Shown piece after piece: positions 38,218 through 63,418 of a stretch of DNA of 64,000 nt. Made by a program: the position numbers and the translations under genes. The stretch is from a virus: the IMG/VR virus record IMGVR_UViG_3300037189_025222, positions 1 to 64,000 of that record. One strand, given 5' to 3'. A model generated the notes under the pieces. It did no database searches, was not told where the DNA came from, and saw only the letters and a list, made by a program, of their open reading frames with translations. Position 1 is the stretch's first letter. Every line of letters starts with the position of its first letter.

Positions 38218-38251
38218 TTGTACCCAATGGGGGCAATTTATTTGTACCCTA
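38218..38251 (+). promoter_or_regulatory. Paired TTGTACCC elements
   Basis: A variant TTGTACCCAA (38218-38227) and an exact TTGTACCCTA (38242-38251), 24 bp apart. The exact copy is 41 nt before the start at 38293. First members of the motif family of the right half. Confidence 0.65.
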
Positions 38252-38292
38252 AGGAGATAGGGTATCGAGTAATTTAAAATTAGGGAGGGTTT

Positions 38293-38535
38293 ATGGATGA
38301 TTCTGAGGCGGTTCGTCGTGCAATGGTGGAAGAGATCAATAGTTCGCCGGGGGATAGGGCTGAGTTGGAGGCTAGGTATGGGCAGGTGTGGGATACTTCG
38401 GAGCTTGGTCGTGATTTTGAGGTGGTGAGTTTTGCTGCTCCGTTGGTGATTGCTAGGAATAAGGCTACCGGAGAGGTTGGTTCATTGTTTTTCCAGCACA
38501 TGCCCCGGTTTTATTGGGGATGGAAGGCTGACTAA
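38293..38535 (+). CDS. Hypothetical protein, 80 aa
   Basis: Small protein, acidic N-terminal helix (DDSEAVRRAMVEEI), then FEVVSFAAPLVIARNKATGEVGSLFFQ, a probable beta sheet, ending PRFYWGWKAD. AGGGAGG before the ATG. First gene of the TTGTACCCTA half. Function unknown. Confidence 0.7.
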   Translation: MDDSEAVRRAMVEEINSSPGDRAELEARYGQVWDTSELGRDFEVVSFAAPLVIARNKATGEVGSLFFQHMPRFYWGWKAD

Positions 38536-38564
38536 TTCCAAATTATACGAAATTGACATTTTGA

Positions 38565-38574
38565 TTGTACCCTA
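38565..38574 (+). promoter_or_regulatory. TTGTACCCTA element
   Basis: Exact copy, 32 nt before the RuvB-like gene's start at 38607; upstream AATTATACGAAATTGACATT is AT-rich. Confidence 0.7.
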
Positions 38575-38606
38575 TAGACTTGTTTCGTATAAAAGCAGGA
38601 GGTTCT

Positions 38607-39692
38607 ATGATTCCACAGGGTGAGTTGATTTTCTGGGGGCCGAAGCATGAGGACAATCTTCCTATGCCTAGTAGGGAGGATAGGTTGAAGCGGGTGGACT
38701 CTGGCAATCCTTCTAGTCCGTTTAGCCGGTTCGTTGGTAATGAGCGGGCTGTTCGGAAGATGCAGGCTGCTGTGTATAGTGCGTTGGGCCGTCCGAATCA
38801 TATCCAGCGTGATTTGGCGTTTGCCATCTTTGGGCCTGCGTCTAGTGGCAAGACTACTTTGGCTCGGCTTTATGCTGATTCTGTAGAGTTGCCGTTGGTG
38901 GAGGTTAGTCCCAAGAGTATTCGGACTACGGATGATCTTTTGGAGTTCATTCGTGCGACTTTGCTGGAGACAGAGGTTCCGTTGGTGGATTGTGGTACGG
39001 ATCAGTTTGTGTTGCCTCCGATGGTGGTGTTTATTGACGAGGTTCATGCACTGAGTCGTTCGGTGGTGGATGGTCTGTTGAAGGCTACGGAATATAAGGA
39101 TGCCATTCTTGTGACGGACGGTGGTTCAACCGTTGACTGTCATAACGTGACATGGATGATTGCGACAACGGATGAGGGTCGGTTGTTTGATGCGTTCCGT
39201 ACTCGTTTTAGCCCGATTATGTTGCAGTATTTGACTAAGGCCGAAGTGGCGAAGATTGTTAGCATGGCTCATAAGGATTTGCCTTCTGAGGTGTGTATGT
39301 TGGTGGCTCACTATAACAGTCGGATTCCCCGTAAGGCTTTGGAGTTTGCTAGGTACATGAAGATGGTTCGTGATATGCACCCTGAGATGACTTGGGAGGA
39401 CGTTGCCCGTCAGGTTGCTGGTGATGAGGGGATTGACGAGTATGGGATGCAGGAGCTTCATTTGAAGGTCTTGCGGGCTTTGGGTCAGGGGCCGGTTGCT
39501 CGTAATCGTATAAGTTTGGTTGTGGGCAGGAAGATTGAGGAAGTGGAGCGGTACATCATGCCGTGGCTGTTGAGTGAGACAGAGGATCAGCCTGCGATGG
39601 TTACTGTGTCGAGCAAGGGCTATGTGATTACTAGGGCTGGGCTTGACGAATTGGAGAAACGTGGTATAAGCTATGTGGCTGAAGCTGCGTGA
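38607..39692 (+). CDS. RuvB-like AAA+ ATPase, 361 aa
   Basis: Holliday-junction-helicase-like organisation: FVGNERAVRKMQAAVYSAL, Walker A GPASSGKT (76-83), Walker B VFIDEVHAL (~141-149), sensor 1 WMIATTDEGRLFDAFRTRF with the arginine region, then RIPRKALEFARYMKMV and a C-terminal winged-helix-like part (GPVARNRISLVVGRKIEEVERY...KGYVITRAGLDEL). RuvB drives branch migration with RuvA; no RuvA or resolvase is visible nearby. Start set at 38607 behind GCAGGAGG. Overall length (~335-360) is normal for RuvB. The array promoter lies in its last codons. Confidence 0.8.
   Translation: MIPQGELIFWGPKHEDNLPMPSREDRLKRVDSGNPSSPFSRFVGNERAVRKMQAAVYSALGRPNHIQRDLAFAIFGPASSGKTTLARLYADSVELPLVEVSPKSIRTTDDLLEFIRATLLETEVPLVDCGTDQFVLPPMVVFIDEVHALSRSVVDGLLKATEYKDAILVTDGGSTVDCHNVTWMIATTDEGRLFDAFRTRFSPIMLQYLTKAEVAKIVSMAHKDLPSEVCMLVAHYNSRIPRKALEFARYMKMVRDMHPEMTWEDVARQVAGDEGIDEYGMQELHLKVLRALGQGPVARNRISLVVGRKIEEVERYIMPWLLSETEDQPAMVTVSSKGYVITRAGLDELEKRGISYVAEAA
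39643..39670 (+). promoter_or_regulatory. sigma70-like promoter of repeat array 1
   Basis: TTGACG (39643-39648) and TATAAG (39665-39670), 16-nt spacer ending in GTGG. Lies inside the 3' end of the RuvB-like gene and points into the array, which begins 19 bp later. Confidence 0.55.
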
Positions 39693-40425
39693 ACCAATAA
39701 GTTCGATTTTGCACACTGAAGAAGTGAACCACTTCCATAGATTTAGCAAGTTCTGTGAGTGAACCACTATAGGGAATTTTACACAAAGCCGTAGTGAACC
39801 TTGGATGATGATTTTATATTCGCACTGAGTGAACCATTAGAAGAGATTTTACATGCCCCACGAGTGAACCATTGAAGCCGATTTTACATGATGAAATAGT
39901 GAACCACGGTTTAGGATTTTACATTTTGACAGAGTGAACCAGCCTCGAAGATTTTACACTGAAGTTGAGTGAACCAGGGACCGGGATTTTACATGGGATC
40001 CACAGTGAACCAAGTGGTACGATCTTACAGTCAAGAAGAGTGAACCATCAAAAGCAATTTTATAGCGACGTTGAGTGAACCAGACTTTCGGATTTTACAT
40101 CACGACCGAGTGAACCATATCCGCTGATTTAAATAACGGAAAAGAGTGAATCACGCAATACGATTTTTAACACAACGCCCGAGTGAACCAAGAAAACGGA
40201 TTTCAACATAATCCGATAGTGAACCATTGGGCATTTTTTTGCAATGAGAGCGAGTGAACCAAATAGATCGATTTTACATACCGTGCGAGTGAACCAGGGG
40301 AGAAGATTTTATAGGTTTGGAGAGTGAACCGTGTAGATCGATTTAGCATACAGTTCGAGTGAACCAATTCTTCAGATTTTACATGATGAGTAAGTGAACC
40401 ATAAATTTGATTTAGCATAAAGGAA
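39689..40425 (+). repeat. Array of 21 units, 35-bp period, GTGAACCA + GATTTTACA boxes
   Basis: Unit starts (GTGAACC) at 39689, 39724, 39759, 39794, 39829, 39864, 39899, 39934, 39969, 40005, 40040, 40075, 40110, 40146, 40183, 40219, 40254, 40289, 40324, 40359 and 40394: spacing 35 (occasionally 36-37). Each unit is GTGAACCA, ~8 variable bases, GATTTTACAT, ~8 variable bases, GA. The two boxes are conserved; both spacers differ in every unit, so it is not a simple recent tandem duplication. No open reading frame fits. It ends directly in a TTGTACCCTA element at 40426. Confidence 0.95.
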
Positions 40426-40435
40426 TTGTACCCTA
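40426..40435 (+). promoter_or_regulatory. TTGTACCCTA element
   Basis: Exact copy at the end of array 1, 64 nt before the preferred start codon at 40500. Its position 1 nt before an in-frame ATG at 40437 argues against that upstream start. Confidence 0.65.
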
Positions 40436-40499
40436 TATGGATGCTCGGGTAGCTTTGCATACCATGATGTTGGCACTTGGGCGTGAAGGAGCGACTCCG

Positions 40500-40766
40500 A
40501 TGGTCAGGATGGAGTCTGGGTACAGTATCAAGAACAACAAGTTCCTAAAAAGATTAAAGAAAAAGTTTAAGAGGCACGGGCCGTGCAGGGTTCCAGAATA
40601 TGAAGATTATTTTCTTCTAAGTTCGGAACCTTATTTTGTTTATAAATATGCGGAGATTATTGGTGCAAACAAAATGCCTGAGCCTTTGCATCGAAAGATG
40701 TTAAGTTTTGCTATTATGAATCCGAATAATTATTATGTGAAGCGTTATTTAAGTCAAAGGAGTTGA
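40500..40766 (+). CDS. YA-repeat family protein (short form), 88 aa
   Basis: C-terminal half VYKYAEIIGANKMPEPLHRKMLSFAIMNPNNYYVKRYL matches the ends of the proteins at 40771 and 42358 (LPENLHNRMLMMSVMEPNNYWVKRY). The N-terminal half is very basic (NNKFLKRLKKKFKRHG). Start 40500 is chosen for GAAGGAG eight bases upstream; an in-frame ATG at 40437 touches the control element. Confidence 0.65.
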   Translation: MVRMESGYSIKNNKFLKRLKKKFKRHGPCRVPEYEDYFLLSSEPYFVYKYAEIIGANKMPEPLHRKMLSFAIMNPNNYYVKRYLSQRS

Positions 40767-40770
40767 GAAG

Positions 40771-41604
40771 ATGCCTTACCAGCAAAGATTTTTGGTTTTG
40801 GATGGCAGCGAAACTTTTAATTATAATAGGGCTTCTTCTGATGTTAAGAGTAAACAACCAGCGGCTAAGTTTTGTCCCATTCTTCTGAGTGTTCCAGATA
40901 ATATCTTCTCAAATTGTAAAAACATTGAGGATCGTCTTGAAGATTGGGTGAAGAAGGTTTACGCCCAAAAGAATGAATTGCAGCTTTGGTCTGGACATAT
41001 GTTGGTTGTAATGACAGAGGAGCAGTGTAGTTCTAATCATCAGATGAATCTTGTATTTAATAGTTATAATTGGAATAATGTTTTACCTTCTTGGCTGAAT
41101 GTTCCTACTGATGCTACTACAGCAATTACATTTGTTAAGGATGTTGGCGTTAATCTTCCTGAGTTTGAGCCTGTAATTAGTCAAGAATCAAAGACAAGTT
41201 ACGAGTACGCTATTATCTTGAGGAAGAGATTTGAGATGGGAGAACCGGCTATTGCTAAGGATGCTGGTTTGAGTTGTCGTTATGCTAAGGAAATTATTGG
41301 TGGTAGGTTTTTGCTTGGAGAGCCTACTATTGCCCAGCATGAACGTGCTGCTGACTTGTATGCTGAGAAGATCAGGGAGTGGCGTTTGTGGGGAGAGTTC
41401 AGTCATGAAACCCTGATGACGAGTCCGGTTTGGATGTATCATTATGCCAAGGATTTTTGTGGAGGTCGTTTGCCTGAGAATCTCCATAATCGGATGTTGA
41501 TGATGAGTGTGATGGAACCGAATAATTATTGGGTGAAGCGGTATAGTGCCAAGAAGTATCAGAAGAAGAAGCGGGCGCCAAAAGCTAATTTAGAAAATGC
41601 TTGA
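40771..41604 (+). CDS. YA-repeat family protein, 277 aa
   Basis: Residues ~125-275 contain imperfect ~30-35-residue helical repeats of the type S-x-x-YA-x-x-I-x-x-GRF-x-x-GEP-x-IA (YEYAIILRKRFEMGEPAIA, CRYAKEIIGGRFLLGEPTIA), ending LPENLHNRMLMMSVMEPNNYWVKRY. I recall similar repeat proteins in phages, of unknown function. The N-terminal ~120 residues are different and beta-rich. AAGGAG near the start; 4 nt after the preceding gene. Confidence 0.7.
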   Translation: MPYQQRFLVLDGSETFNYNRASSDVKSKQPAAKFCPILLSVPDNIFSNCKNIEDRLEDWVKKVYAQKNELQLWSGHMLVVMTEEQCSSNHQMNLVFNSYNWNNVLPSWLNVPTDATTAITFVKDVGVNLPEFEPVISQESKTSYEYAIILRKRFEMGEPAIAKDAGLSCRYAKEIIGGRFLLGEPTIAQHERAADLYAEKIREWRLWGEFSHETLMTSPVWMYHYAKDFCGGRLPENLHNRMLMMSVMEPNNYWVKRYSAKKYQKKKRAPKANLENA

Positions 41605-41628
41605 CAAGTCTATTATCTGTGGTATAAT
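41601..41628 (+). promoter_or_regulatory. sigma70 promoter of repeat array 2
   Basis: TTGACA (41601-41606), 16-nt spacer ending TGTGG, TATAAT (41623-41628): near-consensus. Transcription should begin at ~41635, i.e. within the first array unit. Confidence 0.75.
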
Positions 41629-41631
41629 GGT

Positions 41632-41781
41632 TTTAACCAAGGTAGTCGATTTTTTAAGTTCAAATAGTGAACCATATTGCCGGATTTTATATCAGGCTGA
41701 AGTGAACCATAGCAAAGGATTTTGCATCGGCTGAAGAGTGAACCATCGCCCAGTGATTTCAACAAGATCAACAAGTGAATC
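41632..41781 (+). repeat. Second 35-bp-period array, 5 units
   Basis: A degenerate first unit (AACCA...GATTTTTTA from 41632), then GTGAACC starts at 41667, 41702, 41738 and GTGAATC at 41775. Same boxes and spacing as array 1; the last box runs into the ATG of the next gene at 41782. Confidence 0.85.
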
Positions 41782-42312: not shown

Positions 42313-42322
42313 GGCAAATGAA

Positions 42323-42332
42323 TTGTACCCTA
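42323..42332 (+). promoter_or_regulatory. TTGTACCCTA element
   Basis: Exact copy, 25 nt before the start at 42358, with GAAAGGAG between. Confidence 0.7.
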
Positions 42333-42357
42333 TGAAGTTATCGAAAGGAGATTTCTG

Positions 42358-43273: not shown

Positions 43274-43766
43274 AAAAGTTATTTTTGATAATGACGAACA
43301 TTCTATAACGGTTAAACCCGTTACGTTAATTTTCAATAATACTTATGGGGAGAGTGTATATCCTGAACGGGTAATGATTGATTCAAATATGACTTTGGAT
43401 CATTTTAAAACCCTAAAGGAGATTGATCCTTATACGGCTGCTTTTTTTAAATTTGTTGTGGATGATTATCCTCATCCTGTGATGAAGAGTTTTCTTGAGA
43501 AGTCGGCAATTGGATGTCGTCATTTAATTGGATTGTTTTCTTTGAGCTTGGAGCTGCTGAGTCAACAGAAAAAGTTCGGTTGGAAGTATCCAGAGGCTAA
43601 TCTTCATCCTAGACAACAGTTAAATTTAGCAGATGCTTTGATTGTTTTTGGGCAACCAGAGCGATTTGTTAAATTGGTGAAATATGTGCAAGCTGGGTTC
43701 TTTGACCAGTATCAAATGTGTGCAAAAGAATCTTGGCGTGATGAAGCGTTCAGGGTGATGTCTTGA
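43263..43766 (+). CDS. Hypothetical protein, 167 aa
   Basis: GTG start within the end of the preceding gene. Beta-rich first ~45 residues (SITVKPVTLIFNNTYG), then helical (YTAAFFKFVVDDYPHPVMKSFLEK, CRHLIGLFSLSLELLSQQKK). Not recognised. The promoter of the downstream ncRNA overlaps its last codons. Confidence 0.65.
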   Translation: METEKVIFDNDEHSITVKPVTLIFNNTYGESVYPERVMIDSNMTLDHFKTLKEIDPYTAAFFKFVVDDYPHPVMKSFLEKSAIGCRHLIGLFSLSLELLSQQKKFGWKYPEANLHPRQQLNLADALIVFGQPERFVKLVKYVQAGFFDQYQMCAKESWRDEAFRVMS

Positions 43767-43790
43767 CATTAGTGTTTTCTGTGGTATACT
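43763..43790 (+). promoter_or_regulatory. sigma70 promoter of structured RNA
   Basis: TTGACA (43763-43768), 16-nt spacer ending TGTGG, TATACT (43785-43790). Same architecture as the two array promoters. Confidence 0.75.
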
Positions 43791-43796
43791 GATCGG

Positions 43797-43993
43797 GCCG
43801 ATCAAAACTTACCGTGCTTGTGCTGCTATGGCATCCAGCAGAAACGGTGACTCAGCGGAAGGTAGTCGGCTGATCTGCCCGTAAGACTCCGGGCAGTTAG
43901 CTAAACGTCCGCAGTTCATAACACATTCACCCTCCGTCCTTTCTAATGTGTGTATGAATAGGTCTGCCTCCTCAAAAGAGGCAGACTTTTTTT
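43797..43993 (+). ncRNA. Structured noncoding RNA, ~197 nt, unknown family
   Basis: Framed by a near-consensus sigma70 promoter and a strong intrinsic terminator, with no translatable frame on this strand. Stems visible by eye: CTGCT/AGCAG (~43822-43841), CTGCCCG/CGGGCAG (43876-43898), ACACATT/AATGTGT (43921-43951) and the terminator stem GTCTGCCTC/GAGGCAGAC (43962-43986). I do not recognise 6S, tmRNA or any riboswitch. It precedes a small acidic gene and an IS110-transposase-like gene. Confidence 0.7.
43962..43993 (+). terminator. Intrinsic terminator
   Basis: GTCTGCCTC-CTCAAAA-GAGGCAGAC followed by seven T. Ends the structured RNA; a TTGTACCCTA element begins in the T-run. Confidence 0.9.
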
Positions 43994-44001
43994 GTACCCT
44001 A
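43992..44001 (+). promoter_or_regulatory. TTGTACCCTA element
   Basis: Exact copy immediately after the terminator, 35 nt before the start at 44037, so it must provide transcription of the next unit or act on it. Confidence 0.75.
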
Positions 44002-44036
44002 TAGTTTTGTGTTCTCAACTTTTTAGGAGCTAAACC

Positions 44037-45438: not shown

Positions 45439-45582
45439 CTGAAGTTTTGTGTTCGAGGTGATTTGTCATTGTTTTTTTACACCCAGGGCGATGGTATTTG
45501 TCATTGTTTTATGAACCCAATAATTTTTGGGTCGGTCTAATTTTAAAATAGATTGTGGTATACTTAGGGTCACATAAAAAAA
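45439..45582. other. Intergenic region with direct repeats
   Basis: Two copies of ATTTGTCATTGTTTT (45461 and 45497 regions), each followed by a (C)ACCCA-type end, then the GAACCCAATAATTTTTGGGTC weak hairpin and TGTGGTATACT (-10-like, 45559-45564) 19 bp before the next TTGTACCCTA. No gene. Confidence 0.5.
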
Positions 45583-45592
45583 TTGTACCCTA
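45583..45592 (+). promoter_or_regulatory. TTGTACCCTA element
   Basis: Exact copy, 32 nt before the start at 45625. A TATACT sits 19 bp upstream, so here the element could lie in the leader of a sigma70 transcript. Confidence 0.7.
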
Positions 45593-45624
45593 TGAATTTG
45601 TTGTCTACTTAAAAGGGAAAAAAG

Positions 45625-46004: not shown

Positions 46005-46026
46005 TTTTAAAATATCCATAAAAGAA

Positions 46027-46036
46027 TTGTACCCTA
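46027..46036 (+). promoter_or_regulatory. TTGTACCCTA element
   Basis: Exact copy, 20 nt before the start at 46057; preceded by TAATTTTAAAAT ~20 bp upstream. Confidence 0.75.
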
Positions 46037-46056
46037 TAGGTGCAAGGAGAACCCAC

Positions 46057-47400
46057 ATGCCAAGAGCGAAAAAGGTTACGAAGAACGAGCAAGAGATTGT
46101 TGATGCTGTCAAGCAGACTCTTGCATCTTTTAGTGTTTCAGAAGCGGAATACGTCGAGTTCAAGAAAGATATTGAGAACATTGGCTACCGCTATAGCTTG
46201 GAGTTCCCTTTTTGGGGAGTGCTGTCGGAGCGGTGTTCTTTTAGTCTGACTAAGCATCTTGTGCCGACTGCCGGTATTACCAAGACGGGCCATATTATTT
46301 TTAATGTGGACTTTGTGAAGGAACTGCGTGAGAAGCACGGCAAGCTGTATCATAAGAAGATGCTGTTTCTGATTGCACATGAGATTGCCCACTTTGCTTT
46401 TGAACACGCCGAGCGGCAGGGTCAGCGTGATGCCAAAATCTTCAATATTGCTGCTGACTATGCAATCAACCTGCTGTTGCACTACCAGTTCAATGGTAAT
46501 AGCGATTACTTTATCGAAGGTGGTATGCTTGATACTTCGTATGACGGCATGAGTGCCGAGCAGATTTACGAACTTATCAAGGATAATTATAAAGGTCGTG
46601 GCCGAAGTGATGGTGGTGACGGTGGCGACGGTATTGGTAACGATCTTCGTCCTGATCTTACGGAAGAAGATATTGCCAATGGTTCTGCTTCGGTTCGTGA
46701 GCGTCGGATTCCTCTTCCTGATCTTCGTGGGAAGAGTCCCGAGCAAGCGAGGAAGGAACTTGCAGACTGGATTGGTCGTGGAACGCAAGAGGCTTTTGCT
46801 GTTGCAAAGTCACAGGGCAAGTTGCCATCTGATCTTGAGCGGGCTATTGCCAAGTTGCTCAAGCCACAGATTGACTGGCTGCGGGCTTTGAAGCAGAAGT
46901 TGCGTTTCGGTGTTAGCAGGACAGAGAAGCGGGACGTTACTTGGTCTGTACCTAACCGTCGTTTTCTTGGTGCTGATTTTATTATGCCAAGCAACGTCGG
47001 CCCGGATAAGCCCAAGATTGTTTATGCTATTGACACTAGCGGTAGCATGAGCGAAAGTGATTTGTCACAGGCTGTTAGTGAGTTGGAAGAAATCCGTGTC
47101 AAGTACGGTGCTAAGGTTTATATGCTTGATTGTGACGCTGATGTTCAATCAAGCCGTTGGATCGAACCGCATGAGCCGCTTCCTAAGTTGAAGGGTGGTG
47201 GTGGAACTGATTTTGTTCCAGTGTTCAACCATCTGATTGAGAAGCGTATCAGGCCGGATTACTGCTGCTTCTTTACTGACGGTTATGGGAACTTCGGTGA
47301 CGAAAAGCCACCGTTTGAAGTTCTCTGGGTCATGACGAGTCAGGTTGACCCGCCGTTTGGAGAAGTAGTCAGGGTGAATGTCCCGTATGAGGGGCAATAA
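46057..47400 (+). CDS. VWA-like metallopeptidase-domain protein (DUF2201-like), 447 aa
   Basis: N-terminal metallopeptidase-like domain with HEIAH at 108-112 (FLIAHEIAHFAFEHAERQ) and later DYAINLLLHYQF, a Gly/Asp-rich linker (~185-205, SDGGDGGDGIGND), then a VWA-like domain with metal site D-T-S-G-S at 326-330 (YAIDTSGSMSESDL), GGGTDF and CFFTDGYGNF. Such proteins pair with MoxR-type ATPases to remodel or activate other complexes; the ATPase is two genes downstream at 47880. Start 46057 behind AAGGAGA. Confidence 0.85.
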   Translation: MPRAKKVTKNEQEIVDAVKQTLASFSVSEAEYVEFKKDIENIGYRYSLEFPFWGVLSERCSFSLTKHLVPTAGITKTGHIIFNVDFVKELREKHGKLYHKKMLFLIAHEIAHFAFEHAERQGQRDAKIFNIAADYAINLLLHYQFNGNSDYFIEGGMLDTSYDGMSAEQIYELIKDNYKGRGRSDGGDGGDGIGNDLRPDLTEEDIANGSASVRERRIPLPDLRGKSPEQARKELADWIGRGTQEAFAVAKSQGKLPSDLERAIAKLLKPQIDWLRALKQKLRFGVSRTEKRDVTWSVPNRRFLGADFIMPSNVGPDKPKIVYAIDTSGSMSESDLSQAVSELEEIRVKYGAKVYMLDCDADVQSSRWIEPHEPLPKLKGGGGTDFVPVFNHLIEKRIRPDYCCFFTDGYGNFGDEKPPFEVLWVMTSQVDPPFGEVVRVNVPYEGQ

Positions 47401-47403
47401 AAA

Positions 47404-47413
47404 TTGTACCCTA
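47404..47413 (+). promoter_or_regulatory. TTGTACCCTA element
   Basis: Exact copy, 23 nt before the start at 47437, with GAAGGAG between. Confidence 0.75.
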
Positions 47414-47436
47414 AAGGTTTGTGAAGGAGATACCTT

Positions 47437-47823
47437 ATGGCTAAGAAAACTGCTAAGAAGAAGAAACCTGATCTCAGGGAGCTTTATATGCAGGCTTTCA
47501 GGGATAAGAAAAGACTTCCAGAGGATCAAGAAAAGTTGATGGCTAGTGATCCTGAGTTCGCTTATATGTATGCCAAGTATCTTCGTAAGCCTGCGGGCCT
47601 ACCGAATAATGGTGCTTGGAGTGAAGAAGAGGAAACCATCTTCTTCAAAAGTCCTAAATGGGCTTATATGTATAGCCTGTTCGTCAGGAAGTCTGACGCT
47701 ATATGCCGATATATGATGGCTAATGCCATTGTTGATGTTGAAGATGATTGGACTAAGCGTTTCTTTGACTTTCACACGGGAGTTGATAAAATCCGTGAAG
47801 AGTTAGAGAAAGTCGGAAAATAA
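47437..47823 (+). CDS. YA-repeat-related protein, 128 aa
   Basis: Basic N-terminus (KKTAKKKKPDLREL), then ASDPEFAYMYAKYLRK and FFKSPKWAYMYSLFVRKSDAI, two helical repeats of the YA type, ending RYMMANAIVDVEDDWTKRFF, comparable to the NYWVKRY end of the family at 40.5-43.1 kb. Sits between the VWA protein and its ATPase, so it could be an adaptor of that pair. Confidence 0.65.
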   Translation: MAKKTAKKKKPDLRELYMQAFRDKKRLPEDQEKLMASDPEFAYMYAKYLRKPAGLPNNGAWSEEEETIFFKSPKWAYMYSLFVRKSDAICRYMMANAIVDVEDDWTKRFFDFHTGVDKIREELEKVGK

Positions 47824-47833
47824 TTGTACCCTA
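47824..47833 (+). promoter_or_regulatory. TTGTACCCTA element
   Basis: Exact copy, 46 nt before the MoxR-like gene's start at 47880. Confidence 0.75.
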
Positions 47834-47879
47834 TAAGTTTGTTCTCGGGGTTTGATTTTTAAACTAAGGAGTTGATTAA

Positions 47880-48959
47880 ATGGCTGAAAAGCTCTTGAGC
47901 AGTGCTAATGTCATCACCGGCAGTCTGGTGAATGAGATTCGTAAGTGCCGGTCTGTTAAGACGAGCAAGGGGAATGGTATCCCCATGTTTATTTATGGTT
48001 CGCCTGGTGTGGGCAAGTCAGAGCAGGTTCATCAGGCTTGTGAGGCCGATGAAACCATGATCGACCTGCGGCTGAATACTCTTGATTCTATTGACCTTCG
48101 TGGTCTGCCTGTGGTGAAGAAGGACGATAAGGGCAACCCGACTCAGGTGGAGTGGGTTCGTCCTGAGTTTATCCCGTGGAATGGCAAGGGCATTTTGTTC
48201 CTTGACGAGATGAACACGGCTGCACCGTCTGTGCAGAATCCTGCCCTTCAACTGGTGCTTGACCGTAAGGTTGGTTCGCATCATCTTGGGCCGGATTGGT
48301 ACATCGTTGCGGCTGGCAACAAGGCTGATGATCGGGCGCATACCCATCCTCTGTCTGCTGCTCTGCGTCAGCGGTTTGCCATCTATCACTATGAGCCGGA
48401 TAAGGATACTTGGAGCAACTGGGCGGTCAAGAACAACATTCACCCGAACGTCATCGGGTTTATTAGTTTCAAGCCCGACCTGTTGATCCAGCCGCCTCTG
48501 GATGATGAGGGTGCTAACCCGAGTCCCCGTAGCTGGTATTACGTTTCGCAGCGGCTTTATGCCGACCAGTGCGAAACCAGTGATATTCGTGCGATGGTGG
48601 GTAGTGCTGCTAACGAGTTCATGGCTTATCAGGCTGTCTGTGCCAAGATTCCGAACATTTCGGAAATTATCAATGGTAAGACTACGTTCAAGGAAGATAA
48701 CAAGAACGTAACCATGAGCTATGCTGTCAGCACGGCGTTGTCGATTCATCTGCTTCGGTCAAAGTATACGACCGAGCATGTGAATAACTGCTTCAAGGGT
48801 GCTATCAACAACATGGCCGGTGAGCCGAGCATGGTGTTTATGCGGCAGTGCTTGATTCAGGGTGATGAGAAGATGAAGGCCGTCATCATCTCTTGCGACG
48901 AAGGCAAGAAGTGGTTCGACAAGCACGGCGAACATCTCCAGAAGGCTGTCAACTTCTAA
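47880..48959 (+). CDS. MoxR-type AAA+ ATPase, 359 aa
   Basis: Walker A YGSPGVGKS (39-47), Walker B ILFLDEMN (105-112), sensor WYIVAAGNKADD, arginine-finger region ALRQRFAIYHY, and the MoxR-style insert around SVQNPALQLVLDRKVG. MoxR ATPases work with VWA proteins as chaperone-like machines; its partner is the protein at 46057. C-terminal ~130 residues are helical. AAGGAG before the ATG; terminator hairpin after the stop. Confidence 0.9.
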   Translation: MAEKLLSSANVITGSLVNEIRKCRSVKTSKGNGIPMFIYGSPGVGKSEQVHQACEADETMIDLRLNTLDSIDLRGLPVVKKDDKGNPTQVEWVRPEFIPWNGKGILFLDEMNTAAPSVQNPALQLVLDRKVGSHHLGPDWYIVAAGNKADDRAHTHPLSAALRQRFAIYHYEPDKDTWSNWAVKNNIHPNVIGFISFKPDLLIQPPLDDEGANPSPRSWYYVSQRLYADQCETSDIRAMVGSAANEFMAYQAVCAKIPNISEIINGKTTFKEDNKNVTMSYAVSTALSIHLLRSKYTTEHVNNCFKGAINNMAGEPSMVFMRQCLIQGDEKMKAVIISCDEGKKWFDKHGEHLQKAVNF

Positions 48960-51137: not shown

Positions 51138-51163
51138 TTTAAAATTAGAATTATGCTTATTAA

Positions 51164-51173
51164 TTGTACCCTA
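51164..51173 (+). promoter_or_regulatory. TTGTACCCTA element
   Basis: Exact copy, 33 nt before the GTG start at 51207; AATTTAAAATTA lies ~15-26 bp upstream. Confidence 0.75.
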
Positions 51174-51206
51174 GAGCTATGTGCTAAAAGCTAAGGAGAA
51201 ACTATT

Positions 51207-52350: not shown

Positions 52351-52952
52351 TTTCAACGGATGAATTTGAAAAAGCTGTAGCAGGAAAGTTCTCCCAGATT
52401 TGTGAAAGTGGGTTCAAGGACTTTGAACCTGTATACGACAAGGTTTGTGAAAGTTTCGGCACTAGCCTTATTGGGCTTGGAGCTGATCCAACCACTTATC
52501 AATTTGTTGTGAATGATAACAATATCAGCTATTACGCAGAGATTTTCATTACTGAAGTAGCTCACAACTTATTGAACATCTTTAGAAAGTTTCACGAGAA
52601 TCAGCACAATGAAATTGTTTGTGAAACAGATCTAGAAATCTTTTTGCTTGGTATGGTTCTGGGCAACACTATTGATAAAGAAGGTCAGGTCGGAGCAGGA
52701 CTTCCCAGAATTATGAGGAGCAATGAGATTTTTAATACTGGTTTAGAATACATCAGCAGAGAACAAGTTCAAAGTTTGATTAGACATAAGGCTCAAGGAA
52801 CTCTCACTAAAGAAAATATCCTTGAGATTTGGAATGAAACATTTCAAATTATGTTTGATGGTCTTTTGAGTAGATGTTCTGCCAAAGGTGAGCTAGAATG
52901 TGCTTTTGATGACGAGAAAAATAAGTTTGTTCACTGGATTGACCCAAAATAA
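52347..52952 (+). CDS. Hypothetical helical protein, 201 aa
   Basis: Start at ATG 52347 (ATGA overlap, GGAG upstream). Mostly helical and acidic; HNLLNIFRKFHENQHNEIVCETDLEIFLLGMVLGNTID is the most structured part. No recognised family. Confidence 0.7.
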   Translation: MISTDEFEKAVAGKFSQICESGFKDFEPVYDKVCESFGTSLIGLGADPTTYQFVVNDNNISYYAEIFITEVAHNLLNIFRKFHENQHNEIVCETDLEIFLLGMVLGNTIDKEGQVGAGLPRIMRSNEIFNTGLEYISREQVQSLIRHKAQGTLTKENILEIWNETFQIMFDGLLSRCSAKGELECAFDDEKNKFVHWIDPK

Positions 52953-52962
52953 TTGTACCCTA
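52953..52962 (+). promoter_or_regulatory. TTGTACCCTA element
   Basis: Exact copy, 22 nt before the start at 52985, immediately after the preceding stop codon. Confidence 0.75.
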
Positions 52963-52984
52963 ATCGTTTAAGGAGAATCGAAAA

Positions 52985-53346: not shown

Positions 53347-53685
53347 ATGAAGGTTAAAGTTTACTTTAATTTGAGGAAGAAGTGCTTCAGTGTTCAGCAT
53401 AAAGGTCTGGTAGTTGCTCATACTGATAAAATTGGCCTTAGAGATGTTGTTTTTCGTGTTAGTGAGGCAGGAAGACAGCGTGTTTTGAGGGAAAAGCGTA
53501 AGAATGTTCATGCTTATGTGATCGGCTTTATTGACAAATTTAAACCCCTCAAGGGCTCTGAAATCACCTATAATCCCTATAAATGGGCTAATTTTGTTAA
53601 AAAGAGAGGAAAAAAGCCTGTATTTGAGGCTCGTTTTGCACAATTGACATGTGAAAACGAAAAAGGTAAGATCATCGCTCTATAA
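53347..53685 (+). CDS. Conserved phage protein (MKVKVYFNLRKKCFSVQ family), 112 aa
   Basis: The opening VYFNLRKKCFSVQHKGLVVAH and the later RVSEAGRQRVLREKRKNVHAYVIG belong to a very widespread phage family of unknown function. Basic, beta-rich N-terminus and a possible RNA- or DNA-binding helix. AAGGAC upstream. Confidence 0.8.
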   Translation: MKVKVYFNLRKKCFSVQHKGLVVAHTDKIGLRDVVFRVSEAGRQRVLREKRKNVHAYVIGFIDKFKPLKGSEITYNPYKWANFVKKRGKKPVFEARFAQLTCENEKGKIIAL

Positions 53686-53688
53686 TAG

Positions 53689-53698
53689 TTGTACCCTA
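53689..53698 (+). promoter_or_regulatory. TTGTACCCTA element
   Basis: Exact copy, 19 nt before the start at 53718; TATAAT (53681-53686) sits 2 bp upstream, overlapping the expected transcription start. Confidence 0.75.
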
Positions 53699-53717
53699 GC
53701 CATTTGAAAGGAATCTT

Positions 53718-53959: not shown

Positions 53960-53968
53960 GTATTTTAT

Positions 53969-53978
53969 TTGTACCCTA
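53969..53978 (+). promoter_or_regulatory. TTGTACCCTA element
   Basis: Exact copy right after tRNA-Arg, 33 nt before the start at 54012. Confidence 0.75.
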
Positions 53979-54011
53979 AGACTTCGGTTCGATAACTTTG
54001 GAGATTTTATA

Positions 54012-54526: not shown

Positions 54527-54562
54527 CTAATTTAAAATTTGAATAATTGCATTGTATTTTAA

Positions 54563-54572
54563 TTGTACCCTA
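54563..54572 (+). promoter_or_regulatory. TTGTACCCTA element
   Basis: Exact copy, 33 nt before the start at 54606; TAATTTAAAATTT ~30 bp upstream. Confidence 0.75.
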
Positions 54573-54605
54573 GCGGTTTGTCGTCAATAACATTCCCTTC
54601 CTTTG

Positions 54606-54836
54606 ATGGGTAAACAAATGACCAAGACTAAGACCACTATGGCGGACGAGAACTGTGAGTTTCATGATGAAGTCGGTTTCTTTTGGCATCGGAACTACAA
54701 CAGCGTGGCTAACGTGACTCTTTTGGCCGATGGCACTCTGGTGTTTAGCGGCTCTAACTACAATCTGGAAATCCAGAACATCGGTACGGATCAGGAGAAG
54801 GTGGTTGTAAAGAATGCTGCTGATCTGGTTCTGTAA
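54606..54836 (+). CDS. Hypothetical protein, 76 aa
   Basis: Beta-rich small protein (VANVTLLADGTLVFSGSNYNLEIQNI). Start uncertain: ATG 54606 or 54618, neither with a good ribosome site. Followed by a long inverted repeat. Function unknown. Confidence 0.6.
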   Translation: MGKQMTKTKTTMADENCEFHDEVGFFWHRNYNSVANVTLLADGTLVFSGSNYNLEIQNIGTDQEKVVVKNAADLVL

Positions 54837-54842
54837 ACGTGT

Positions 54843-54899
54843 GCTAGGGGCGGCAAGGCTCTACGGCCAAAAGCTGCGAAACTGCTAGCCGCCCCTAGC
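54843..54899 (+). terminator. 12-bp inverted repeat, likely terminator
   Basis: GCTAGGGGCGGC (54843-54854) and GCCGCCCCTAGC (54888-54899), perfect stem with a 33-nt loop. No T-run directly after, so factor-independent termination is uncertain. Confidence 0.6.
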
Positions 54900-54936
54900 C
54901 GCTAATTCAAATTTTGAATAATAGCAATCAAAATAA

Positions 54937-54946
54937 TTGTACCCTA
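54937..54946 (+). promoter_or_regulatory. TTGTACCCTA element
   Basis: Exact copy, 56 nt before the start at 55003. Confidence 0.75.
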
Positions 54947-55002
54947 AACAGGTACGACGTTCTTCGATAAACTTGTTTTTCTAACCTTTCTAGGAGTTTC
55001 TC

Positions 55003-56195: not shown

Positions 56196-56226
56196 GCTAA
56201 TTTTAAATAATTGTCCTCTAATTTTA

Positions 56227-56236
56227 TTGTACCCTA
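56227..56236 (+). promoter_or_regulatory. TTGTACCCTA element
   Basis: Exact copy, 42 nt before the start at 56279. Confidence 0.75.
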
Positions 56237-56278
56237 ACAAACTACAGTTCAACGGCACTCACTCTCAGGAGACGAACG

Positions 56279-58536: not shown

Positions 58537-58557
58537 GTTCGTCGGTTTTGTTTTCGG

Positions 58558-58567
58558 TTGTACCCTA
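58558..58567 (+). promoter_or_regulatory. TTGTACCCTA element
   Basis: Exact copy, 16 nt before the start at 58584, the shortest spacing in the window; the ribosome site AAAGGAA lies between. Confidence 0.75.
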
Positions 58568-58583
58568 CTAGGAAAGGAATCTT

Positions 58584-58964: not shown

Positions 58965-58980
58965 TCAGTTCAGGATTAAT

Positions 58981-59610: not shown

Positions 59611-59865
59611 TCACTTCCGCTGCGAAAGCAGCCACCTTGCCTGAGGTGCCCTTTCCGCAGGGAATCAGGCCGTCGTGTTCATGAGGCGTACCCTTTCCGT
59701 CGTCGGGGTGCATGAACTCACTTTGATATTGCATGTGCTGTTTGGACTCGACAGTAAATATCATGGTCAACCCGTACCAGTGTCACTGTGGACTCATACC
59801 CCACGGTGTGTCCGTGCGACTCGGATGACGGGCATAAATGGATTTATGGGACTGATACTGCAAAA
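59611..59865. other. Intergenic stretch before tRNA-Lys, no gene called
   Basis: Short frames exist on both strands (e.g. minus strand 59573-59770; plus 59764-59829 with CHCG) but none has a ribosome site or clear protein pattern. CCCTTTCCG occurs twice (59648 and 59690 regions) and the DNA is hairpin-rich; could be a leader or a small RNA. Confidence 0.4.
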
Positions 59866-60134: not shown

Positions 60135-60166
60135 TTGTTATTGTTTTCAAGGACGTAAGGACAACA

Positions 60167-60343
60167 ATGAAAAAGAAAAAGCCAAGCTATAAGAAATTGA
60201 AGAAGGCGTTTTTGGCGGTTGTAAACAATACGAATCTTGATAGTGAAAAATGTGCTGAGTATTCTTTCGTGCTTAAGATCTGGGAGCGTTTGAAGAAAGA
60301 ACAAAAGAAGAAGCAGGACAACGAACCGCTTTTACCTGTGTGA
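60167..60343 (+). CDS. Small basic protein, 58 aa
   Basis: Start set at MKKKKPSYKKLKKAFLA behind GTAAGGAC; the longer upstream frame runs through tRNA-Lys. Amphipathic Lys-rich helices (VLKIWERLKKEQKKKQ). Possibly nucleic-acid binding; unknown. Lies between two tRNA genes. Confidence 0.6.
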   Translation: MKKKKPSYKKLKKAFLAVVNNTNLDSEKCAEYSFVLKIWERLKKEQKKKQDNEPLLPV

Positions 60344-60350
60344 TTAGGTT

Positions 60351-60435
60351 GCCGAAGTGGCGAAATTGGCGAAACGCAAGGGACTTAAAATCCCTCACAT
60401 TAGAAACACTGCGGGTTCGAATCCCGCCTTCGGCA
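60351..60435 (+). tRNA. tRNA-Leu(TAA)
   Basis: Acceptor GCCGAAG/CTTCGGC, anticodon stem AGGGA/TCCCT with loop CTTAAAA (anticodon TAA, reads TTA), a long variable arm as in class II tRNAs, T arm GCGGG-TTCGAAT-CCCGC. No intron, unlike many tRNA-Leu(TAA) genes. Confidence 0.9.
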
Positions 60436-60473
60436 CTGGTTTGATTTTTATAACTTGTGAATAAGGAGATAAC

Positions 60474-60743
60474 ATGAAGTATGCTATTGCGTTCTTGACT
60501 ATGTTTGGCGCTTTTAATGTTTGCAATTATGTGAACGCTGATCAGATTCAAATCAATGACGATGAGATCAATAAGATTCTTAAGGCTAAAGAGATTGTTC
60601 GGGGGATGGTAAACTTTCCCGATACCCTTGTGTTCCATGAGTTCTATACCAAGGTCAGCGGAAACACTGTGACGCTTAAGTTTACCGCTAAGAATGCTTT
60701 TGGTGTGCCAGAGACGCATATCAAAGATATTAAAGTCAATTGA
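60474..60743 (+). CDS. Secreted hypothetical protein, 89 aa
   Basis: Signal peptide MKYAIAFLTMFGAFNVCNYVNA, predicted cleavage before DQIQIND. The mature ~67 residues are helix then beta strands (TVTLKFTAKNAFGVPETHIKD). AAGGAGA before the start. Function unknown. Confidence 0.7.
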   Translation: MKYAIAFLTMFGAFNVCNYVNADQIQINDDEINKILKAKEIVRGMVNFPDTLVFHEFYTKVSGNTVTLKFTAKNAFGVPETHIKDIKVN

Positions 60744-60747
60744 TATT

Positions 60748-60818
60748 AAATCCGGCCTACCGCAGATAGCATTCACTGTTCGCTCGGTGAGTACGTCCCG
60801 GCAGGCCGGATTTCTCTT
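60748..60818 (+). terminator. Intrinsic terminator
   Basis: AAATCCGGCCT (60748-60758) pairs with AGGCCGGATTT (60803-60813), then CTCTT. Stem 11 bp with a branched loop. Confidence 0.7.
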
Positions 60819-60845
60819 AATTTAGAATTAGGGTGCATAAAATAA

Positions 60846-60855
60846 TTGTACCCTA
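60846..60855 (+). promoter_or_regulatory. TTGTACCCTA element
   Basis: Exact copy, 40 nt before the GTG start at 60896; TAATTTAGAATTA ~20 bp upstream. Confidence 0.75.
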
Positions 60856-60895
60856 TAATTCTAGCGGTCTCTCTAAACTTTACCCGGAGTATCCT

Positions 60896-61195
60896 GTGAA
60901 ACTTCTAACTAAAGAACTGCGGAACAAGCTGCCTCCCCTCTATGCTAATGATGGAAAGGGTGAGGACGCTGTGGCAATCGTCAAGTTTTTCGATGCTTTT
61001 GGAAGCTGGACTTGGTGGGCTTCTGAGTTTGATGGTGATGACACATTCTTCGGGGTTGTTGAGGGACACGAACGAGAGTTCGGCTATTTCAGCTTGAGTG
61101 AGTTGGAAAGTTTGAAGATTGGTGGGGGGTGCCCACGAATCGAAAGAGATTTATATTTTGTCCCCAAGCCTTTGAAGGAATGTAAAAATGAGTAA
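60896..61195 (+). CDS. DUF2958-like protein, 99 aa
   Basis: LLTKELRNKLPPLYANDGKG, AIVKFFDAFGSWTWWASEFDG, FFGVVEGHEREFGYFSLSEL and RIERDLYFVPKPL match DUF2958 (LLT-x-E-x-R-x-x-LP-x-L ... VKFF-x-P ... W-x-W-x-x-x-EFDG), a family of plasmids and phages with unknown role. GTG start chosen (CGGAG upstream); the longer frame would include the control element. Confidence 0.8.
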   Translation: MKLLTKELRNKLPPLYANDGKGEDAVAIVKFFDAFGSWTWWASEFDGDDTFFGVVEGHEREFGYFSLSELESLKIGGGCPRIERDLYFVPKPLKECKNE

Positions 61196-61661
61196 CCTTG
61201 TATTGTACCCTTATTATCTTGATGAGTATCAGCTTTATTGCTTCGATGATGAACGAACAAACTTGAAGGAAGAGCTTTTTGTTGAAACGATTACAGCAAT
61301 GATTCATAAGTTGCTAGATTTGAAGGGGGTAAAGAATCCCCGAGAAGGATTTGAACTAACATTTAGCACAAGTCCTATGAGTGATGCTGACGCTACTTTG
61401 ACTTGGGTAAGAAGTAACAACCCAACAGTCAAGCCAGATACTCCCCGAAGTGGAGAAGCAGGCAATTTCTACGCTGTAGAATTAGAAGGTCAGTATATGG
61501 AAGGTTGGCTGTGTCCTGCTCTTGCTAAGTATATGAATGGATATGCACCTTCTAAGATTTATGTGAAGGTTGATAATCTTCCCAAGGGTGTCAATCCGAT
61601 TTGGGACATTTCTGAGTCTGATAGTCCTACCGCTTATGTTGGGCCTTACGCTAAGGAGTAA
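61188..61661 (+). CDS. DUF6717-like protein, 157 aa
   Basis: SNLVLYPYYLDEYQLYCFDDERTNLKEELFVETITAMIHKLL resembles the DUF6717 opening (YPY ... W-x-FDD-x-x-x-L-x-x-EPFV). Acidic, later GWLCPALAKYMNGYAP. Function unknown. Overlaps the preceding gene by 8 nt. An internal TTGTACCCTT is not an exact control element. Confidence 0.65.
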   Translation: MSNLVLYPYYLDEYQLYCFDDERTNLKEELFVETITAMIHKLLDLKGVKNPREGFELTFSTSPMSDADATLTWVRSNNPTVKPDTPRSGEAGNFYAVELEGQYMEGWLCPALAKYMNGYAPSKIYVKVDNLPKGVNPIWDISESDSPTAYVGPYAKE

Positions 61662-61663
61662 AT

Positions 61664-61915
61664 GTGATGGAAACTGTTTCGCAGACAGAGAAAAGATGGA
61701 CTGATGTTGCTAAGAGTCAATTTCTAAATAAGAAGATTGTTGCCGTCAGGTATCTTTCTCAAAAAGAAGCAGATTCATTAGGGTGGTACCATCGTCCAAT
61801 TGTTTTGCAGTTGGACGATGGTAACCTCATTTTCCCCAGCAGAGATGATGAGGGAAATGATGGTGGTTCACTTTTTACGAATGATGATAAACAACCAGTA
61901 ATCCCTGTTATTTAA
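61664..61915 (+). CDS. Conserved hypothetical protein, 83 aa
   Basis: KIVAVRYLSQKEADSLGWYHRPIVLQLDDGNLIFPSRDDEGNDGGSLFT fits a small family (I-x-x-VRY-x-x-x-EA-x-x-x-GW ... LDDG ... PS-x-DDEGNDGGALF) found widely in bacteria, function unknown. GTG start, or Met2. Confidence 0.7.
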   Translation: MMETVSQTEKRWTDVAKSQFLNKKIVAVRYLSQKEADSLGWYHRPIVLQLDDGNLIFPSRDDEGNDGGSLFTNDDKQPVIPVI

Positions 61916-61927
61916 GAAGAGGAAACT

Positions 61928-62431
61928 ATGGGAACAAGATCAATGCACGTTTTCCCTTCAGCTACGAAGGGCAAGTGGATTACTCAGTATTTTCAGTTTG
62001 ATGGTTCTCCTGCTTATCAGCTTGAGAAGTTTCTTAGAGATAGTCAGTGCTTTCTAAGAAATCTGACGCTGATTATTGCTTCTGAAAAGAAGATGTCTCC
62101 AGATAATGTGCAATTGTTTACAGATTATCTTCGTAAGTATTATGCTTGGCGCAGTTTTGATACCCATCATTCAATTGGTAATTCTTGTGAAGTCGATTCT
62201 TATGCACTAAAAGACTTTCAAGATCAGTGGTGTGAATGGGCCTATGAATGGGACAATAACGCTAATCTGAAGATTACCCGTCTTGAGGGTGATTACCCAG
62301 CAGTTATTTGTCCTTTGACTGATCTAACAAAGTTCCAGTTAGATGGCCCTACAGGCTGGTTTGACGAGTCCAACTTTAAAAAGATGCCTGAAATCATTAT
62401 GGAAGAGTTTGATGCTCTTTCGGAAATCTAG
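61928..62431 (+). CDS. Hypothetical protein, 167 aa
   Basis: MGTRSMHVFPSATKGKWITQ... with a Trp-rich acidic middle (DQWCEWAYEWDNNANLKITRL). An MGTR/GTRS-type N-terminus occurs in other phage hypotheticals, but I cannot name a family. AAGAGGA upstream. Confidence 0.65.
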   Translation: MGTRSMHVFPSATKGKWITQYFQFDGSPAYQLEKFLRDSQCFLRNLTLIIASEKKMSPDNVQLFTDYLRKYYAWRSFDTHHSIGNSCEVDSYALKDFQDQWCEWAYEWDNNANLKITRLEGDYPAVICPLTDLTKFQLDGPTGWFDESNFKKMPEIIMEEFDALSEI

Positions 62432-62472
62432 CTAATTTGGATAAAATAGATGATTTAGACCCTGTAAAATAA

Positions 62473-62482
62473 TTGTACCCTA
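62473..62482 (+). promoter_or_regulatory. TTGTACCCTA element
   Basis: Exact copy, 35 nt before the start at 62518. Confidence 0.75.
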
Positions 62483-62517
62483 AGAAAAAAGTTTGTGATC
62501 TAAAAAAGGGACAAATA

Positions 62518-62991
62518 ATGCCGAAAACAAAAGTAGACAAGCTAAAGGGTGATGACGGCAAGGCTCTTTCAAAGCTCCCTAATGCTACTAGGGCTTTTAT
62601 TCTTGATCTATTTGAAAAGAATGGATTCAAGGAAGTCACTATTAGCTTTAGTGGAGAAGGTGATGACGGTCAAATTGATGACCTTGACGTTCATGGTGGT
62701 GTAAGGGAATCTTTGCAGGATTTGATCACAGTTCCCGATGAAGTCCTCAATGAGCTTGAGAAGTGGCCTTTGTCGCATGACGGGTATAAGATAAATCCAC
62801 TGGTGAGCATCAGTGATTTTCTTGAGCAAGTCAGTGGTTTTTGGATCAACTACTGTGGAGTTGATTGGGTGAATGGTGAGGGCGGAACAGGATACATCAG
62901 GTATTCTGTTGATAAAAAAGGTTTGAAAGTTCGTATGGAGGTTTCGGAATGGGAGCGGGTTGAAGGATATACCCAAGCTGGTGATCTCTAA
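62518..62991 (+). CDS. Hypothetical protein, 157 aa
   Basis: Start set at MPKTKVDKLKGDD with AAAAAGGGAC upstream; the upstream frame would read through the control element. Acidic, GEGDDGQIDDLDVHGG loop, then VNGEGGTGYIRYSVDKKGLKVRMEV, a likely beta sheet. Function unknown. Confidence 0.65.
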   Translation: MPKTKVDKLKGDDGKALSKLPNATRAFILDLFEKNGFKEVTISFSGEGDDGQIDDLDVHGGVRESLQDLITVPDEVLNELEKWPLSHDGYKINPLVSISDFLEQVSGFWINYCGVDWVNGEGGTGYIRYSVDKKGLKVRMEVSEWERVEGYTQAGDL

Positions 62992-62996
62992 AATAA

Positions 62997-63006
62997 TTGT
63001 ACCCTA
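62997..63006 (+). promoter_or_regulatory. TTGTACCCTA element
   Basis: Exact copy directly after the preceding stop, 57 nt before the start at 63064. Confidence 0.75.
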
Positions 63007-63063
63007 TTGAACCGTTGGCACTGTGCTAACGGTTGAGTTTTTTGATACCTTGGAGAGATAAAT

Positions 63064-63342
63064 ATGGCTCGTACTAAGAACGACGGTCGGAAGAACAATG
63101 CTCGTCCCGAAAAGACCTATAAGTATAATTCTGCTACTGAGGCAGCTATTGTGAAGGTTCTTCGTGAGCATGGTCTTACGGGTGGTTATAACTGGATTCG
63201 TAAGAACAAGCTGGTTGGTGTTCGTCGCTGCGGCGAGTTGGAGGGTCAGGAAGAGCGTGTTGAACTGTCGCTCCCTGCTCTGCAACAGCTTGCCAAGCGA
63301 CACCGTGTCAAGTTTGCTCGCGGCCCACGCAAGGCTGCTTGA
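63064..63342 (+). CDS. Small basic protein, 92 aa
   Basis: Strongly basic (MARTKNDGRKNNARPEKTYK ... RHRVKFARGPRKAA), middle helix ATEAAIVKVLREHGLTGGYNWIRKNK. Looks nucleic-acid binding. GGAGAG before the ATG; strong terminator after. GC-rich codons. Confidence 0.7.
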   Translation: MARTKNDGRKNNARPEKTYKYNSATEAAIVKVLREHGLTGGYNWIRKNKLVGVRRCGELEGQEERVELSLPALQQLAKRHRVKFARGPRKAA

Positions 63343-63359
63343 GCCAACTGACACGTTTA

Positions 63360-63406
63360 GCCAGCCGGAGGAACCCCGCCACACATTCCTCCGGCTGGCT
63401 ATTTTT
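63360..63406 (+). terminator. Intrinsic terminator
   Basis: GCCAGCCGGAGGAA (63360-63373) pairs with TTCCTCCGGCTGGC (63386-63399), then TATTTTTA. Perfect 14-bp stem. Confidence 0.9.
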
Positions 63407-63408
63407 AT

Positions 63409-63418
63409 TTGTACCCTA
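63409..63418 (+). promoter_or_regulatory. TTGTACCCTA element
   Basis: Exact copy 2 bp after the terminator's T-run, 21 nt before the start at 63440. Confidence 0.8.

Follow-up and report, generated by a model that had tools for sequence, protein, structure and literature searches.

A recurrent ten-base element in a jumbo phage genome is probably the core of a phage-specific promoter read with a phage sigma factor

What kind of signal is the ten-base sequence TTGTACCCTA, and what reads it? It occurs 21 times in a stretch of viral DNA of 64,000 nucleotides, hereafter the window, which represents the first 64 kb of the 146-kb virus record IMGVR_UViG_3300037189_025222 (G000). The genome belongs to a jumbo tailed phage and encodes a T4-type terminase, a DnaB-like helicase, DNA polymerase III alpha and a class II ribonucleotide reductase. 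Our analysis points to a phage-specific promoter with TTGTACCCTA as its invariant core, most likely read by host RNA polymerase with a phage sigma factor, here called sigma-A, in dialects that diverge together with that factor; we put the probability of this reading at roughly 0.68.

The sequence of the 146-kb record is included, at 99.9% identity, in a 381-kb IMG/VR contig (G001). Relatives were reached from the ATPase at 47880, namely, G002 (204 kb, 70% identity), G003 (118 kb, 68%), G004 (323 kb) and G005 (251 kb), the last two both at 51% identity, while a terminase query gave LR756511.1 (LR756511), a 595-kb uncultured phage. The contigs may be incomplete, and the gene calls are those of a simple caller made for this analysis. 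Element coordinates are 0-based from the first T of the core unless given relative to the predicted transcription start (+1).

The initial annotation had listed 21 exact copies between 38242 and 63409, all on the plus strand, and count, strand and coordinates were all reproduced. Random occurrence would give 0.11 copies, and none of 100 shuffles reached 21. The first 38 kb proved to be free of copies, as claimed, the sole near match there being a minus-strand TTCTACCCTA at 27550; a search of the window allowing one mismatch added just this match, one at 38218 and one at 61203, the last of which lies inside a gene and probably reflects chance. The array had been assigned to the right half of the window. 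It is not limited to that part: the 146-kb record contains 72 copies (68 plus, 4 minus) from 38.2 to 88.9 kb and none beyond 88.9 kb, and G001 contains 75, just three of them outside this 51-kb block. The block is made up of small genes, with the structural genes outside it, and the element precedes most of its genes or small gene groups. These are non-structural genes, probably of the middle (delayed-early) class. The copies are mostly intergenic, with a start codon mostly 11–60 nt downstream, and the earlier statement that a start codon follows the core by 16–64 nt was true of nearly all of them. The copies at 43992 and 63409 do follow a terminator-like hairpin and T run directly, as read by eye. 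Three of the four minus copies stand back-to-back with plus copies, and the fourth is at 74211. The inverted pairs of G000 (83256/83284, 86215/86251 and 87630/87657) are about 17–26 bp apart, and their minus members have no evident gene. A 66-bp repeat, 98.5% identical, was also noted just 5' of promoter copies at 54835–54900 and 85344–85409 of the same record.

Alignment of the copies on the core revealed that the conserved part is longer than the 10-mer. The full element reads tAWAWWAA-TTGTACCCTA-nAARn-T-G/A, in which an A/T box (−8 to −1) precedes the ten nearly invariant bases, with a purine-rich patch after them and then T at +16 and G/A at +17. Position-specific information was detected just from −8 to about +20, and a classical −35 element showed zero conservation among the core-aligned copies. 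The TAATTTAAAATT-like upstream boxes, previously taken for a common companion, were present at just 6 of 71 plus copies and are therefore not part of the element.

Neither G002 nor G003 contained TTGTACCCTA. The dialects identified in the relatives were TAGAATGTTA in G003 (48 copies; in fuller form AAAATAAAAT-n-TAGAATGTTAT), AAATAAtwTT-n-CGTTAT in G002 (97 copies), GGTACGGTT in G004 (approximately 35 copies) and AGCTGTAC in LR756511 (134 copies, with 77 sense copies within 160 nt before starts versus 8 antisense copies). Scanning one genome with the element model of another yielded no matches. Nevertheless, the presence of a promoter was shared by orthologues in all seven genome pairs tested (Fisher p 0.009 to 3e-7). 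A second recurrent element was observed 5' of some promoters, namely, AACACCTRATGTTTAT in G002 (21 copies, 122525–165979) and GGTTAGCATTTATCC in G003 (about 15 copies).

In the best reading of the alignment, +1 is predicted approximately 17 nt after the first T of the core. Relative to this position, the AT box would span about −25 to −18 and TTGTA −17 to −13, the −10 element would be CCCTAn (−12 to −7), followed by T at −1 and G/A at +1. All dialects align when +1 is set at the conserved purine, 7 nt beyond the last base of the −10-like hexamer: TTGTA/CCCTAn (G000), TAGAA/TGTTAT (G003), nnnnT/CGTTAT (G002), CGGTA/CGGTTG (G004) and CTGTA/CTAAAn (LR756511). Using the AT box rather than +1 to align the dialects fitted the edges of neighbouring features less well and was dropped. 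We infer the start sites from three such edges, those of Shine–Dalgarno (SD) sequences, leaderless ATG codons and tRNA genes. An SD sequence begins exactly at the predicted +1 in 4 copies of G001, 15 of G002 and 12 of G003, and clearly before it in just one copy per genome. A leaderless ATG lies within 2 nt of +1 in 15 copies of G002, 4 of G003, 2 of G004 and 9 of LR756511, although the +1 signal itself is weak in LR756511. In addition, tRNA genes start 1, 2, 4, 4 and 17 nt past +1 in G003, and 2 and 14 nt past it in G002. Many G002 promoters (e.g. 148541, 157338, 158839 and 164799) carry TGGCCG..CGGCCA at the predicted +1, possibly a 5'-terminal hairpin of the mRNA, while others have an ATG at +1.

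The copies in the window, with predicted +1 and neighbouring features, are as follows.

Copy 1: 38234..38259 (core 38242–38251, predicted +1 38259), plus strand; exact core; start codon 41 nt after the core.
Degenerate copy TTGTACCCAA: 38218, near copy 1.
Copy 2: 38557..38582 (core 38565–38574, predicted +1 38582), plus strand; exact core; RuvB-like AAA ATPase gene downstream; its G004 and LR756511 orthologues also have dialect promoters.
Copy 3: 40418..40443 (core 40426–40435, predicted +1 40443), plus strand; exact core; directly after a 35-bp iteron array.
Copy 4: 42315..42340 (core 42323–42332, predicted +1 42340), plus strand; exact core.
Copy 5: 43984..44009 (core 43992–44001, predicted +1 44009), plus strand; exact core; directly after a hairpin and T run (by eye).
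Copy 6: 45575..45600 (core 45583–45592, predicted +1 45600), plus strand; exact core.
Copy 7: 46019..46044 (core 46027–46036, predicted +1 46044), plus strand; exact core; HNH-endonuclease-family gene, with dialect promoters at the G002 and G003 orthologues.
Copy 8: 47396..47421 (core 47404–47413, predicted +1 47421), plus strand; exact core; dialect promoters at the G002 and G003 orthologues.
Copy 9: 47816..47841 (core 47824–47833, predicted +1 47841), plus strand; exact core; MoxR-like ATPase gene, with dialect promoters at the G002, G003 and G004 orthologues.
Copy 10: 51156..51181 (core 51164–51173, predicted +1 51181), plus strand; exact core.
Copy 11: 52945..52970 (core 52953–52962, predicted +1 52970), plus strand; exact core; SD sequence AAGGAG begins at predicted +1.
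Copy 12: 53681..53706 (core 53689–53698, predicted +1 53706), plus strand; exact core.
Copy 13: 53961..53986 (core 53969–53978, predicted +1 53986), plus strand; exact core; just 3' of tRNA-Arg.
Copy 14: 54555..54580 (core 54563–54572, predicted +1 54580), plus strand; exact core; dialect promoter at the G002 orthologue.
Copy 15: 54929..54954 (core 54937–54946, predicted +1 54954), plus strand; exact core; AAA ATPase gene, with a dialect promoter at the G004 orthologue.
Copy 16: 56219..56244 (core 56227–56236, predicted +1 56244), plus strand; exact core; dialect promoter at the G002 orthologue.
Copy 17: 58550..58575 (core 58558–58567, predicted +1 58575), plus strand; exact core.
Copy 18: 60838..60863 (core 60846–60855, predicted +1 60863), plus strand; exact core.
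Copy 19: 62465..62490 (core 62473–62482, predicted +1 62490), plus strand; exact core; dialect promoter at the G002 orthologue.
Copy 20: 62989..63014 (core 62997–63006, predicted +1 63014), plus strand; exact core; hairpin AACCGTT..AACGGTT (63010–63034) starts just before predicted +1.
Copy 21: 63401..63426 (core 63409–63418, predicted +1 63426), plus strand; exact core; directly after a GC-rich hairpin and T run (by eye); SD sequence begins at predicted +1.

A search for a phage sigma gene identified sigma-70-family proteins in G001, G002 and LR756511, based on Sigma70_r2/r4 and PHROG sigma matches. Sigma-A of G001 (211843–212859) and the G002 sigma are reciprocal best hits, which is how the former was identified. 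The three members are very divergent (22–27% identity to each other); all of them matched a PHROG sigma family, and two gave Sigma70_r2 matches (G002, E 6e-5; LR756511, E 4e-5). The sigma-A profile matched SigA structures at E 4.5e-5, and spurious protein A matches in the same structure-profile list were disregarded. No further sigma-A homologues were detected in IMG/VR besides those of G001 and G002. The sigma-A gene has its own dialect's element upstream in G001, G002 and LR756511. The distance in G001 is 92 nt, and of that contig's 446 non-array genes, sigma-A alone has an element no more than 160 nt upstream. In G002, the gene that follows sigma-A is the one for the RuvB-like ATPase, the first large gene in the array of the window; in LR756511 this gene comes two genes after sigma-A. 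The G001 sequence separating the element from the sigma-A start also contains TTGACA-16-TATGCT with TG, which may be an early promoter used by the host enzyme. Other host-type matches occur in the window at 41601–41628 (12/12) and 43763–43790 (11/12), in a common TCTGTGGTATA(A/C)T context, and the class to which they belong is not enriched genome-wide.

These observations suggest the following scheme. Sigma-A would first be made early by the host enzyme from a host-type promoter, and would then boost its own expression via the element located 92 nt ahead of the gene. It would redirect the host polymerase, switching on the array as a middle-gene regulon. Sigma-A and the promoters may have diverged together in the related huge phages, and we propose that this joint divergence gave each phage its own dialect at orthologous genes.

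Several observations weigh against this scheme. With respect to the promoter, the copy at 79142 has an SD sequence before the predicted +1, CCCTAn is unusually GC-rich for a −10 element, and the distance from the AT box to the −10 is 8–9 bp shorter in G000 than in G002 and G003. With respect to the early promoter, TTGACA/TATAAT matches of at least 11/12 numbered 23 genome-wide versus 21 in shuffles. Host-type promoters were thus rejected as a genome-wide class, and the match upstream of sigma-A is used as weak evidence only. With respect to the reader, sigma-A of the window's own phage, taken alone, is weak in Pfam, and an AlphaFold model of sigma-A from two sequences was unusable (predicted local distance difference test, pLDDT, 48.7). 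No sigma factor was found in G004 and G005, two genomes with a clear dialect, or in the G003 fragment of 118 kb, and inspection by eye recognized no conserved transcription factor of a new kind common to four genomes. We see a small chance that each phage has a private promoter language of about 35–134 sites, rewritten faster than the orthologous genes, whose reader in at least one lineage (G004/G005) is a specificity factor, neither a recognizable sigma factor nor a polymerase. Finally, profile searches showed that G001 encodes other sigma-like proteins, each a possible reader: sigma-B at 197511, sigma-C at 330421 (96600–97511 in the 146-kb record) and a 96-amino-acid fragment at 162412.

It is accordingly conceivable, albeit unlikely, that sigma-B or sigma-C reads the same promoter, with sigma-A merely a target or the reader of another class. 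Their region 4 matches are clearer, sigma-C sits in the same 146-kb record as the array, and a motif copy lies at 198762 of G001, 373 nt downstream of sigma-B. However, the element precedes sigma-A, not sigma-B or sigma-C, and the latter two have no detectable homologue in G002, G003 and G004, which have homologous promoter arrays. The initial annotation had named either a phage RNA polymerase or a phage sigma factor as the reader of a promoter. This proposal is supported by the fixed +1 geometry in five dialects, by the copies that relatives have immediately before tRNA genes, and by the placement of a phage sigma gene behind its own dialect's promoter. Of the two agents, sigma-70-family proteins were found, whereas a phage polymerase was searched for and not found. 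We regard it as quite improbable that a T7-like or phiKZ-like polymerase, too diverged to detect or encoded on a missing part of the genome, is the reader. The contiguous AT box, invariant core and downstream purines do resemble T7-like promoters, but the geometry fits a sigma −10 element (ending at −7) in the five dialects. Moreover, no single- or multi-subunit polymerase was detected in any genome searched, with the reservation that the contigs may be incomplete. PF00940 (single-subunit) gave nothing credible in G001–G005 or LR756511, everything being below the cut-off, and its sole match in the 146-kb record was weak and inside a 4404-amino-acid tape-measure-like protein; PF00562, PF00623 and an active-site regular expression (multi-subunit) gave zero matches.

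The remaining alternatives place the signal elsewhere than in a promoter. In cluster A mycobacteriophages, a repressor bound to stoperator sites blocks transcription that started at promoters elsewhere. A repressor operator of this type, between genes in one orientation, would agree with the dozens of asymmetric, one-directional, intergenic copies. We consider it very improbable: the distance to the T-R signal is fixed, SD sequences, ATG codons and tRNA 5' ends are bounded at the same position, an edge that an operator does not explain, and host-type promoter matches in the array part of the window are no commoner than chance. The operator in the leader with a −10 box upstream, as the initial annotation had offered, is likewise disfavoured, as SD sequences and start codons begin at +17 of the core-based numbering and almost never earlier, and tRNA genes start 1–17 nt past the predicted +1. 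A 5' leader element acting on the RNA, in translation, stability or processing, would account for the closeness to SD sequences and for the 16–64 nt to start codons. It appears extremely improbable, because the homologous element of relatives is found immediately before ATG codons at +1 and before tRNA genes, the latter position being one that a signal at the level of translation cannot account for. The upstream box is conserved just as A/T, which points to a signal at the DNA level.

Three further features of these genomes were noted. The iterons just before copy 3 are 35-bp units of the form GATTTTACA-n-GAGTGAACCA-n, some 20 of them in tandem within non-coding DNA (window 39689–40410 and 41667–41745), with two further units at 171243 and 171278 of the 381-kb contig; this iteron array is a candidate replication origin or partition site. 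A gene for a PrkA-type serine kinase is present at 114923–117013 of G001 (E 1e-78). The 4404-amino-acid open frame (G000 114203–127417) has internal repeats and hydrophobic stretches, with shorter orthologues in related phages, and looks like a tape measure protein.

The promoter read with sigma-A, as favoured here, can be compared with known systems. Phages phiEco32 and 7-11 encode a sigma factor that retargets the host's RNA polymerase to a short phage element, with starts 6–9 bp away: tAATGTAtA for the gp36-dependent middle/late promoters of phiEco32 and GTAAtg-16-aCTA for the gp47 late promoters of 7-11 (PMC8948821). Promoter positions are kept among relatives while the sequences are not, self-feedback of the 7-11 sigma gene was proposed, each phage has 6–8 promoters, and the sigmas were acquired independently (PMC8948821). 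The present system is similar in having a phage sigma gene, a recurring element before a gene set and the sigma gene under its own promoter. Its start distance is an estimate from SD, leaderless ATG and tRNA boundaries. In contrast, it has about 35–134 elements per genome, several dialects and a homologous but very divergent sigma in phages of 300–600 kb. T4-like jumbo phages with sigma factors and without a polymerase constitute group 2 (PMC7824862). The T4-type terminase, the lack of a detected phage polymerase and the proposed redirection of host polymerase by a phage sigma resemble both this group and T4 late transcription (gp55, TATAAATA). The core, on the other hand, is the invariant TTGTACCCTA and not TATAAATA, in agreement with the initial annotation, and TATAAATA was found 5 times versus 4 expected upstream of non-array genes; elsewhere in the genome, only a weak TATATA enrichment hinted at a further promoter class. 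Promoters of T7-like single-subunit polymerases share the contiguity of AT box, core and start region, but no such polymerase gene was detected here. PhiKZ and AR9 are likewise jumbo phages with a short single-block element, but a beta/beta' homologue was not detected here and sigma factors are present, whereas phiKZ-type phages are without sigma factors (PMC7824862).

No report of these arrays was found in the literature, and the papers listed for the 10-mer were unrelated. Compared with the phiEco32/7-11 kind, what differs is the far larger scale, the presence of at least five dialects and their divergence on a homologous sigma. For huge phages that have so far been seen in metagenomes only, the system offers a directly testable sigma–promoter pair and a simple route to finding their regulons, with start sites predictable to the base. 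It also provides a natural series of co-diverged sigma/promoter pairs, in which about 75 near-identical promoters have been rewritten together per lineage, raising the question of how a phage alters so many sites at once.

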